NCBI RefSeq assembly: GCF_947241125.1
Contig: NZ_OX365700.1
Coordinates: forward strand, 1,364,001 to 1,428,000
Reading direction: 5' to 3'
Length of the DNA stretch: 64,000 nucleotides
Origin: Nitrospira tepida
Lineage (GTDB): Bacteria; Nitrospirota; Nitrospiria; Nitrospirales; Nitrospiraceae
Positions 5,480 through 57,371 of this stretch are shown here, in pieces. The notes under the pieces are model-generated. The model was given only the letters and a program-made list of their open reading frames with translations, was not told the DNA's origin and made no database searches. The position numbers and the translations under genes were made by a program. Within the stretch, counting starts at the first letter, position 1. Each line of letters begins with the position of its first letter.

Positions 5480-6355
5480 ATGGCCCGCCCGCTTCGCCTT
5501 GAATTTCCGGGGGCGCTGTACCACGTCACCGCTCGGGGGAACGCCCGCCACGCCATCGTTCTCGACGACCAGGACCGGCAGCGGTTTCTCGATGTGCTGG
5601 CGCGTGTGGTCGACCGCTTTCACCTGCTGCTTCACGCCTATTGCCTGATGGACAACCACTACCATCTGCTGGTGGAAACGCCGGAGGCGAATCTCTCGAA
5701 GGCCATGCGCCAGCTCAACGGCGTGTATACCCAAGCCTTTAACCGCCGCCACCGGCGAGTGGGCCATGTGCTCCAAGGCCGCTTCAAGGCCATTGTGGTG
5801 GACCGGGACAGCTATCTGCTGGAGCTGTGCCGGTACGTGGTCCTCAATCCGGTGCGCGCGAAAAGCACCCGCAAACCAGAGACGTATGCATGGTCCAGCT
5901 ACCGGGCCACAGCTGGCCTCGCCGCCACGCCACCGTTTCTGGCCGTGGATTGGCTGCTCTCCCAATTCGGCCGCCAGCGCCTGGCCGCTCAGCGAAAGTA
6001 TCGGGCCTTCGTCGCCGAGGGCATGGGGCAGGGCTCCCCATGGGAGCACGTGCAGGGGCAGGTGCTGCTCGGGAGCGAGCGGTTCATCGACCGGCTTCGG
6101 GTGGGGCTACAGGACAAGCGCGCCCTTCAGGAGATTCCCCGAGAGCAACGATTTGCCGCCCGGCCGAAGCTCAGCCACCTGTTTGCCGCCCGACTCGGCA
6201 CCGACCGCATGCGCCGCAACGAGGTCATCCGCCGTGCCCACGTGGACTACGGCTACAGCTTGTCCGAGATCGGGCAGGCGGTGGGCTTGCACTATTCGAC
6301 CATCAGCCGGATCGTGAATCGGCAGGACACCGATAATGCACATAACAAGACCTGA
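5480..6355 (+). CDS. REP-associated tyrosine transposase (RAYT, Y1 family)
   Basis: The 291-residue protein has the IS200-like Y1 transposase fold: RPLRLEFPGALYHVTARGN at the start, the metal-binding DNHYHLLVETP (HUH motif) near residue 55 and the candidate catalytic Tyr in SYLLELCRYVVLNP. The C-terminus has a DnaA-like helix-turn-helix, DYGYSLSEIGQAVGLHYST. Enzymes of this class nick single-stranded DNA at palindromic repeats and usually move such repeats rather than themselves. The ATG at 5480 fits the family start. The gene is flanked by inverted repeats, and its last 43 bases are duplicated downstream. There is no partner gene. It appears full length and could be active. Confidence 0.88.
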   Translation: MARPLRLEFPGALYHVTARGNARHAIVLDDQDRQRFLDVLARVVDRFHLLLHAYCLMDNHYHLLVETPEANLSKAMRQLNGVYTQAFNRRHRRVGHVLQGRFKAIVVDRDSYLLELCRYVVLNPVRAKSTRKPETYAWSSYRATAGLAATPPFLAVDWLLSQFGRQRLAAQRKYRAFVAEGMGQGSPWEHVQGQVLLGSERFIDRLRVGLQDKRALQEIPREQRFAARPKLSHLFAARLGTDRMRRNEVIRRAHVDYGYSLSEIGQAVGLHYSTISRIVNRQDTDNAHNKT

Positions 6356-6450
6356 CCCCACTTGTGACTTCGCTTTCTTGTGACTTCGTGAATCGGCAGG
6401 ACACCGATAATGCACATAACAAGACCTGACCCCACTTGTGACTTCGCTTT
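6313..6450. repeat. 64-bp direct repeat at the RAYT 3' end
   Basis: Bases 6313-6376 and 6387-6450 are identical direct repeats (period 74 bp). Each holds the last codons of the transposase, the right terminal inverted repeat and the following CCCCACTTGTGACTTCGC. The second copy is a partial duplicate with no gene in front of it. Confidence 0.85.
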
Positions 6451-49653: not shown

Positions 49654-50133
49654 TGAGCGGTGGACGGCGAGGCAGAGCGCGGCGCGCGATCGAGATCGGC
49701 GCGCGCCGCACGGTTCGTCCTTCGGAATCGTCGAGGGCGGCCGGTTCAACCGAAGGTTGGTAGGAGGACAAGCAACTCAAATCCCTGTCGGTGTTTCTCC
49801 AGCGCCGGCGGATTCGATAAGGCGAAACAGAGGCGCCGGTTGAACCGAAGGTTGGATCAAAAGAAGCAAATCACTTGAGGGTTTTTCTCCTGCGGCGTCA
49901 ATGAAGAGGGGCTTCGCCCAATGAGCCGCCGGTTCAACCAAAGGTTGGATCAAAAGAAGCAAATCACTTGAGGGTTTTCTCCGGCGGCGTCAATGAAGAG
50001 GGGCTTCGCCCAATGAGCCGCCGGTTCAACCAAAGGTTGGATCAAAAGAAGCAAATCACTTGAGGGTTTTCTCCGGCGGCGTCAATGAAGAGGGGCTTCG
50101 CCCAATGAGCCGCCGGTTCAACCAAAGGTTGGT
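49654..50133. repeat. Palindrome plus five tandem ~92-bp structured repeats
   Basis: The interval holds no gene. At 49679-49709 a perfect 10-bp palindromic stem (GCGGCGCGCG) follows the stop codon. From 49741 on there are five copies of CCGGTTCAACCAAAGGTTGG or close variants, at 49741, 49837, 49930, 50022 and 50114; the last units repeat exactly every 92 bp. Within each unit three hairpins can be seen: CAACC-AAA-GGTTG, GGGC-TTC-GCCC and an outer CCGGCGGC/GCCGCCGG. The final copy ends directly in the ribosome-binding site of the next gene. Confidence 0.85.
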
Positions 50134-50145
50134 ATGGAGGTTGCC

Positions 50146-50514
50146 ATGACGAGACAAGTCCTTCTGTGGGTGACGATGTTCGGTATCGGCTTGCTGGCTT
50201 TCGCCCCGGCTGCGACCGCGGCCGAGACGGCATGGATCGATGAGATCTCGAATTCGATCAGTTTCTACAAGGCGACCTACCCGAACTCCGACTGGACTCC
50301 CTATCAGGACAAATTGACGCTGGTCCGGGAAGCCGTGGATCGCGGGGATCAGCGGACCGTCCGGATGGAGATGGGGAAATGGTTCCGGATGCTCCGCAAT
50401 CGAGACCATGGAATACACGATGTGGCCGCGGATGAACTCTTCAACTTTGCGGTCATGGTCACGCCGGTGCAGGAGTATGGGATCATGGTGCCGTCCCAGT
50501 CGCCGACTCCGTAG
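50146..50514 (+). CDS. Exported helical protein, unknown
   Basis: The 122-residue protein has a signal peptide with cleavage after ATAA. The mature part looks helical (TAWIDEISNSISFYKATYP, KLTLVREAVDRGDQRTVRM) and ends in a proline-rich tail. No family is recognised. GGAGG at 50136-50140 supports the ATG at 50146; the ATG at 50134 overlaps that site. The ribosome-binding site abuts the last hairpin of the tandem repeat, so its translation could depend on that structure. Confidence 0.65.
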   Translation: MTRQVLLWVTMFGIGLLAFAPAATAAETAWIDEISNSISFYKATYPNSDWTPYQDKLTLVREAVDRGDQRTVRMEMGKWFRMLRNRDHGIHDVAADELFNFAVMVTPVQEYGIMVPSQSPTP

Positions 50515-55685: not shown

Positions 55686-55700
55686 GCCGGTGCCTTGTTA

Positions 55701-55997
55701 ACCCACATCATTCATGAACGCTTCTGCTCCAATCGCGGCTTCGCCGCTGCGACAAGCCAACAACGAGAAGTCGAAGGCAACGTACCTCTCCGCCGCGATG
55801 TGATCGAACGCGGCGGTTCAAGCGAAGCTTGGTATGGCGGGCGTGCTTGCCGCTCAGTCGATCAACATACTGTTTCAAGCATGCCTCCCTCCCTCACGGC
55901 TGCGCTTGGGGGTACCCATTGCGCTTTTCCATGCAATGGGTCCAACGCTTGGCGATTCCACGATTTCGCGACGAACCGTCATGAATAATGCGGGTTA
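55701..55997. repeat. MITE-like element between regulator and kinase genes
   Basis: The ~297-bp stretch is bounded by inverted copies of one ~38-bp repeat: 55701-55738 (ACCCACATCATTCATGAACG) and 55960-55997 on the other strand (ACCCGCATTATTCATGACGG). Inside are a CGCCGCG/CGCGGCG palindrome, a hairpin CAAGC-GAA-GCTTG at 55819-55831 that matches the tandem repeats of 49741-50133, and no gene. It inserts between the two genes of a two-component system, and the right copy covers the regulator stop. Confidence 0.55.
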
Positions 55998-57371
55998 GGA
56001 AAGCTGATACTTCGCCATCCGGTACCGGAGCGTGTTCCGCGTTATCTTGAGCAAACGGGCCGCCTCGGAAATGTTGCCCCGGCTCTTGTCGAGGGCCTCC
56101 TGCAGCAAGCGTTTTTCCATCTCGTCGGCCGATAGGCCGAAGGCCAATAGGGAGCCAGGCCGCGGATCGGCCTGTGCGGCGGCCGGGGCGCGGCCCGTCC
56201 AGGCGGGGGGGAGATCCTCCAATCCGGCCTCGTCCCGTTTGCAAGTGATGGTGAGCCATTCCACCAAGTTCCGTAGCTCTCGGACGTTGCCGGGCCATTC
56301 ATATTGCTCCAAGCGCGCCAAGGCCTCGGGGGAAATCCGCCGCAGGGGGGTCCCGCTTTCCCTCCGAGATCGTTCGAGGAAAGCATCGAGCAGGGGACGA
56401 ATATCCTCAGGCCGTTCGCGGAGCGGAGGGATGTGCAGGTGGCAGACGTTCAAACGATAATAGAGGTCCTCGCGGAACCGCCCCTGTTTGACCAGATCGG
56501 GTAACGACTGGTGCGTGGCGGCGATCACGCGGATGTCCACGGTGACGCCTCGCACCGAGCCCAGCGGTTCGACGAGACGGGTTTCCAACACCCGCAGCAG
56601 GGTGGCCTGCGCGGTCAGGCTCATTTCGCCGATCTCGTCCAGGAACAGGGTGCCGCGATCGGCGAGTTGAAAGCGACCGGGCTTGGATCGTTTGGCGTCG
56701 GTGAAGGCCCCCTTCTCGTAGCCGAACAGTTCAGACTCCAGCAGGTGCTCGGGAATGCCGGCGCAGTTGACGGCGACCAACGGGCCTCCGGATCGCGGAC
56801 CGGCCAGATGGATGGCGCGCGCGAGCAGTTCCTTCCCCGTACCGCTTTCTCCGGTGATGAGAACTGTCGCATCCGTCTTGGCGATGTCGCGGGCCAGCGC
56901 CTTCAACTGCGCCATGCGGGGGGAGAGGCTGATCATGCGGTCGAACCCGTATTCATTTTCCAGGTCCCGATACATGACGCGCTGGGTCTGGGAGAGGCGC
57001 CGGAGCTCGATGGCGCGGGCGACCACGATCTTCAGCTCATCGTTGTCGATGGGTTTGGAGATATAGTCGTAGGCGCCCTTTTGCATGGCCTCCACGGCCG
57101 ATTTCACGGTGCCGTACCCCGTCACGATCAGCACCGGAATGTCGGGATAGGAGGCTTTCGCCGACTCCAGCACCTGCATGCCGGTCATGCCGGAACCCAA
57201 TTGGAGGTCGGTGATGATCAGATCGGGAGTGGGAGTGTCGGCGAGGAGTTGCAGACCCAGTTCCCCGTTTCTGGCCAGACGCAGGTCGTAGCCTTCCGGC
57301 GACAGGACCAGCTCGAAGAGCCGGCGCATGCGCTCTTCGTCCTCGATGATGAGCAGGAGAGGTGGCCGCAT
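55995..57371 (-). CDS. NtrC-family sigma-54-dependent response regulator
   Basis: The 458-residue activator has a receiver (IIEDEE, phosphorylated Asp55 in LIITDLQLG), an AAA+ domain (GESGTGKELLARAIH, the sigma-54 contact loop GAFTDAKRSKPG, GTLFLDEIGEM) and a Fis-type DNA-binding end (RGNISEAARLLKITRNTLRYR). It should open sigma-54 promoters after phosphorylation by the kinase downstream. I looked for a TGGCAC...TTGC promoter near the exported protein genes and found none, so its targets remain unknown. Confidence 0.95.
   Translation of the reverse strand: MRPPLLLIIEDEERMRRLFELVLSPEGYDLRLARNGELGLQLLADTPTPDLIITDLQLGSGMTGMQVLESAKASYPDIPVLIVTGYGTVKSAVEAMQKGAYDYISKPIDNDELKIVVARAIELRRLSQTQRVMYRDLENEYGFDRMISLSPRMAQLKALARDIAKTDATVLITGESGTGKELLARAIHLAGPRSGGPLVAVNCAGIPEHLLESELFGYEKGAFTDAKRSKPGRFQLADRGTLFLDEIGEMSLTAQATLLRVLETRLVEPLGSVRGVTVDIRVIAATHQSLPDLVKQGRFREDLYYRLNVCHLHIPPLRERPEDIRPLLDAFLERSRRESGTPLRRISPEALARLEQYEWPGNVRELRNLVEWLTITCKRDEAGLEDLPPAWTGRAPAAAQADPRPGSLLAFGLSADEMEKRLLQEALDKSRGNISEAARLLKITRNTLRYRMAKYQLS

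Follow-up and report, generated by a model that had tools for sequence, protein, structure and literature searches.

A structured tandem repeat of Nitrospira whose arrays adjoin Shine-Dalgarno sequences and tRNA/tmRNA 3' ends

The array locus and the repeat unit

The window analysed here is a stretch of 64,000 nucleotides of the Nitrospira tepida genome (genome positions 1364001-1428000), in which an array of hairpin units precedes a small gene (Table 1). Five such units had been described in the first-pass annotation, and they are indeed present, spanning 49714-50138, with the last one reaching the GGAGG of the Shine-Dalgarno (SD) sequence. TRF reports a tandem repeat at 49830-50132 with a 92-bp period and 97% match. 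In the gene-adjacent copy, the P3 hairpin CAACC-AAA-GGTTG is followed in turn by GTAT, GGAGG (50136-50140) and the ATG at 50146. The most distal copy, which scores only 21.9 bits, is followed by TAGGAGG and by no gene, as had been noted before. Two orthologs of the protein encoded at 50146 were found in the genome collection, both in Nitrospira MAGs.

A sixth copy with a compensatory change in P3 (CAAGC-GAA-GCTTG, then TATGGCGG) had also been reported, correctly, and its outer stem differs on both arms as well (CCGCCGCG/CGCGGCGG versus CCGGCGGC/GCCGCCGG). This copy precedes no gene start and sits within a MITE-like repeat, of which ~17 copies were counted in the genome by their internal junction and which holds one hairpin unit. 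Elsewhere in the window, a Y1_Tnp (RAYT-like) transposase gene lies at 5480-6355; its 3' end is spanned by an exact tandem duplication of 74 bp (6312-6450).

Table 1. Features of the array locus and of the sixth copy, in window positions
Feature	Position	Strand	Remarks
Copy 1	49714..49766	+	21.9 bits; most decayed of the array
Copy 2	49791..49861	+	51.0 bits; P2 CCAGCGCC/GGCGCCGG; P3 GAACC-GAA-GGTTG
Copy 3	49881..49954	+	69.9 bits
Copy 4	49973..50046	+	77.4 bits
Copy 5	50065..50138	+	87.6 bits; gene-adjacent; TTTCTCC; P2 arms 50073-50080 and 50109-50116; P3 50119-50131
GGAGG SD of the downstream gene	50136..50140	+	also in orthologs without the array
Downstream gene	50146..50514	+	small, probably exported protein (predicted); no Pfam family
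MITE-like repeat, ~313 bp	55692..56004		26-nt inverted ends (AACCCRCATYATTCATGA), 81%; carries the sixth copy
Sixth copy	55782..55838	+	P2 CCGCCGCG/CGCGGCGG

The anatomy of the unit was derived from an alignment of 50 copies, the flanks being read separately. The P3 hairpin noticed in the first-pass annotation is real, and the full unit of ~75-95 bp is larger, with the layout CAC-TNGAG-GTG-TTTCTCC-[8-bp P2]-TT-[5-bp P3]-GGTAT. It opens with a small 5' hairpin (CAC-TNGAG-GTG) and the TTTCTCC motif, which are followed by P2, an 8-bp GC-rich stem with a variable loop of 11-28 nt that holds an inner hairpin in some copies. Two bases 3' of P2 stands P3, a 5-bp stem with an NAA-type loop, after which come G, TAT and GG. 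Pair counting in the 50-copy alignment found 91.7% of the cells paired (98% in P2), and pairing dropped to 21-45% when the structures were slid along the alignment. Changes on both sides of a pair occurred in 106 cells, compared with 29 in shuffles and 10-21 in the slid controls. The covariation that the sixth copy had hinted at thus proved very strong, with a score of 0.348 against 0.095 in shuffles, and none of 500 shuffles reached the real score. P2 exchanges GC, CG, AU and UA and only rarely has GU, a pattern that selection acting on a DNA hairpin would explain no less well than selection acting on RNA. Disrupted stems, named in the first-pass annotation as an argument against a functional fold, do occur in part, in that older, target-distal copies are degraded and pair 2 of P3 is often a T-T mismatch.

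A covariance model of the unit matched 142 places in the 4.73-Mb genome. A genome-wide DNA search gave 53 places; the P3 pattern, with up to 3 mismatches allowed, occurred 123 times and its reversed control 11 times. The earlier proposal of a functional fold that had spread therefore holds for the fold (106 versus 29 double-change cells) and for the spread (142 dispersed copies), but not for the role in translation control that went with it. With the same model, copies were found in 22 of the 32 sampled genera, nearly all from the family of Nitrospira, and matches occurred in 35 of 61 genomes of relatives, again almost all of this family, with a maximum of 76 in G004. G004, G018, G019 and G030 are the element-rich genomes of the family, and no match was obtained in its genomes G003, G008, G016, G021, G026, G027 and G031. 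No match was obtained in the plasmids and phages that were searched as carriers. A literature search found no description of this Nitrospira repeat; REP-like sequences are counted for N. moscoviensis in one paper, in a passage that leaves them undescribed.

Junctions of the arrays

The bases 3' of P3 were read for each of the 63 arrays of this genome that lie outside the MITE-like repeat. In 39 of them (62%), the array runs into TATGGAGG (or a close match) with a start codon 4-10 bases further on, that is, into the SD of an ORF. Another 15 (24%) run through TA/TGG (the slash marking the junction) into a CCA 3' end on the opposite strand, which belongs to a tRNA or tmRNA gene or to a 3' fragment of such a gene, and a single array precedes a sense tRNA-Ser that starts with GGAGGGG. 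The junctions are base-precise at GG-rich edges, TAT/GGAGG for the SD and TA/TGG, the complement of CCA, for tRNA and tmRNA. In this genome, the 3' ends of 10 of the 45 tRNA genes and of the tmRNA gene are occupied. The same junction classes are seen in relatives, where the sense tRNA-Ser case recurs in G018 and the tmRNA 3' end is occupied in two genomes, making three with this one. For comparison, 12% of the non-coding TGG sites in these loci are SD-like and 0.33% are tRNA ends, so that the array ends are far richer in both. As GG and even GGAGG are common outside SDs, the actual preference is stricter than a simple motif would explain, and selection may contribute to it.

Terminal copies of the two classes differ in the motif 5' of P2, in that TTTATCC replaces TTTCTCC in 14 of 36 tRNA-class units and in 7 of 58 SD-class units. 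Guide-target covariation might lie behind this difference, but the swap of TATCC for TCTCC brings no better pairing to tRNA ends. A role of the element in providing tRNA genes with their CCA was rejected, as all 57 tRNAs of the fetched loci encode CCA, whether or not an element lies beside them.

At nine loci, tRNA 3' pieces of 14-46 nt directly adjoin the arrays. Their breakpoints lie near the anticodon or the T loop, as in integrase att remnants, and for one tRNA-Glu fragment beside an array the full gene is found 2.9 kb away. Such fragments are most likely old att remnants left by islands that integrate at tRNA genes. In addition, one locus in each of G016, G002 and G022 carries a short insert in the tRNA-Pro 3' region that duplicates its last ~19 nt and has T-arm-like inverted ends.

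Array polarity and orthologous sites

In the window array, the score rises with every copy toward the gene, from 21.9 to 87.6 bits (Table 1). The same polarity is general: in 35 of 47 multi-copy arrays, where 18 would be expected, the best score belongs to the target-proximal copy, a count that is partly helped by the TATGG columns inside the model. A pair count without these columns agrees, the proximal end being better in 39 arrays and worse in 12. Units are also nested. One unit type lies in the loop of another at ATGA/AGAGGGG, with both host halves still there, and this nested type stands first in many arrays; some other units end in TATG/GCCGCCGG inside older P2 arms. At the tRNA-Pro site, G030 carries a decayed old unit and a newer unit of another subtype nearer to the tRNA, and G018 a single unit. 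Polarity, nesting and the tRNA-Pro pattern would all fit repeated insertion at one fixed edge. A fixed composite, one unit within the loop of another, was furthermore seen at six loci and begins many arrays, which suggests that composites also spread as a whole.

Comparison of orthologous places revealed occupied and unoccupied sites. Among genomes with a readable upstream region, the SD of leuA carries the unit in this genome only, and leuA in ten other genomes of the family (eight genera) has its own SD with no unit at it, e.g. GTGGAGGTGATGCGATG. In G022, a unit lies ~80 bp further upstream of leuA, away from the SD. For mscL, the unit is present in G004 and G023 has a bare AAAGGAGGGGGAGTATG; the tRNA-Leu(taa) is occupied in G004 and empty in G023. 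The two orthologs of the window gene carry AAAGGAGG or CAAGGAGG with no array, most of the upstream gene also being lost in one of them. Since orthologs without the unit still carry the SD, the SD is older than the element. The right flank of the units is fixed across arrays, and none of the orthologous sites compared gave a clean empty site whose left border was exact.

Candidate explanations and known repeat families

The unit is thus dispersed, structurally constrained, nested, found at some orthologous places and missing at others, and joined with base precision to GG-rich edges. From these sequence patterns we infer mobility and targeting, and we consider that the unit is probably a non-autonomous, target-specific element, palindromic and mobile, that belongs to Nitrospira and its family, with arrays that would grow by repeated insertion at one edge. 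Insertion would be directed 5' of a GG motif, and each new copy would land on the target side of the older one, adjoining the target; arrays would then lengthen at the target-proximal end and older copies would be pushed off and decay. Because the SD or the CCA end would stay intact, insertion could be nearly harmless and the element could accumulate. A putative recombinase or transposase acting in trans probably recognises the hairpins in the form of folded single-stranded DNA. We found no autonomous copy, no convincing long version with P2 arms kilobases apart, and no transposase or recombinase tied to the element.

Selection might instead keep the hairpins as an inter-cistronic RNA element that insulates or processes transcripts, stabilising the 5' end of the downstream mRNA or separating a tRNA from an mRNA. 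P3 is precisely spaced to a functional RNA, and by gene calls from a simple hexamer model the arrays lie mostly between co-directional genes, with 49 of 57 SD arrays having a left neighbour of the same strand and 22 of 32 left genes of tRNA arrays pointing in the direction of the tRNA, but such gene pairs are frequent in any case. Many genera carry the element, with differing hairpin sequences, at the tRNA-Pro 3' site, and this wide occupancy could reflect a retained function. Against such a role, SD arrays would give the sense strand and tRNA arrays its complement, hence no common RNA sequence; the leuA and mscL orthologs manage without the unit, and copies nested in old copies have no such role. 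We regard this explanation as doubtful in general, although a role in transcript processing is possible.

A related reading, which we hold only tentatively and think unlikely, takes the units as mobile hairpins whose integration is directed to SD sites and to tRNA/tmRNA CCA ends by an enzyme other than a RAYT or a reverse transcriptase, the arrays recording successive insertions at one edge. A reverse transcriptase partner was rejected, as RVT_1 is rare and missing from element-rich genomes.

A translation control element, which the first-pass annotation had raised as a possibility, would sequester or expose the SD. An SD does directly follow 62% of the arrays outside the MITE-like repeat, and UCUCC could pair with GGAGG, as seen in some single folds; UCUCC, however, overlaps the very stable P2 stem. 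About a quarter of the arrays end antisense to tRNA/tmRNA 3' ends, and copies of this class would be unable to control translation as the array ends on the opposite strand. The mean predicted accessibility of the SD is 0.39 for the real sequences, 0.40 with the upstream 90 nt shuffled and 0.33 for other SDs, which is not a significant difference, and a search of the unit against Rfam returned no known RNA family. The antisense class, the SD in orthologs without the unit and the unchanged predicted accessibility speak against the earlier proposal. We therefore consider such control improbable; if the unit affects how the gene at 50146 is translated, it would do so only incidentally.

Mobilisation as REP/BIME elements by a resident RAYT (Y1) transposase would account for hairpins and intergenic dispersal, and this genome has Y1_Tnp genes (8 matches), but it is highly improbable: no unit lies beside these genes, Y1_Tnp is absent from the element-rich G018 (100% complete, 60 matches) and G004 (95%, 76 matches) and is also missing in the less complete G023, G028 and G033, the GTAG tag is absent, and the arrays are head-to-tail with the target on one fixed side.

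With the mobile element as the preferred reading, the known repeat families offer partial parallels. Mycobacterial interspersed repetitive units (MIRU) are direct repeats that are intergenic and oriented with the downstream gene. They have been described as mobile repeats whose insertion at start codons has little impact (PMC12548453), and MIRU is the nearest working analogue, sharing with the Nitrospira SD class short tandem repeats, apparent mobility, precision at the translation start region and the orientation of the gene. MIRU, however, sits at the start codon and has a small gene-coupled ORF, whereas the Nitrospira unit lies 5' of the SD with a 92-96 bp period, has covarying hairpins and adjoins tRNA/tmRNA 3' ends, where there is no ORF to couple. 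The pneumococcal BOX, RUP and SPRITE repeats differ from it in sequence and phylum, and they are not known to target SDs and tRNA ends. As outlined in one paper (PMC3049150), they are structured, modular, small interspersed repeats, traits that the Nitrospira unit shares. REP, BIME and REPIN sequences are likewise multi-copy extragenic palindromes (PMC6006769, PMC3733652), as are the 142 copies with covarying stems, and presumably move in the form of folded single-stranded DNA. In the alignment of the Nitrospira unit, TTTCTCC stands at the hairpin foot instead of a GTAG/CGTC tetranucleotide; each unit has two different stems, and the head-to-tail arrays would grow at the target. No Y1 gene is flanked by the unit, unlike in REP/RAYT systems, and several rich genomes are without Y1. 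IS200/IS605 elements use subterminal hairpins and guide-target pairing (PMC6006769), and the CTCC 5' of P2 could similarly pair with GGAG, but no HuH gene is attached or, on present evidence, needed, and the tRNA targets mismatch a CTCC guide. The unit works like MIRU or REP elements and fits neither definition.

Strong covariation directly before an SD thus does not necessarily indicate a riboswitch. Naming the enzyme would define a new site-specific insertion system and would explain how 76 copies came to lie in a genome that lacks Y1 transposase genes. For the family of Nitrospira, the arrays suggest that a repeat can coexist with its bacterial hosts by occupying low-harm edges, on the 5' side of the SD and at the 3' boundary of tRNA or tmRNA genes.
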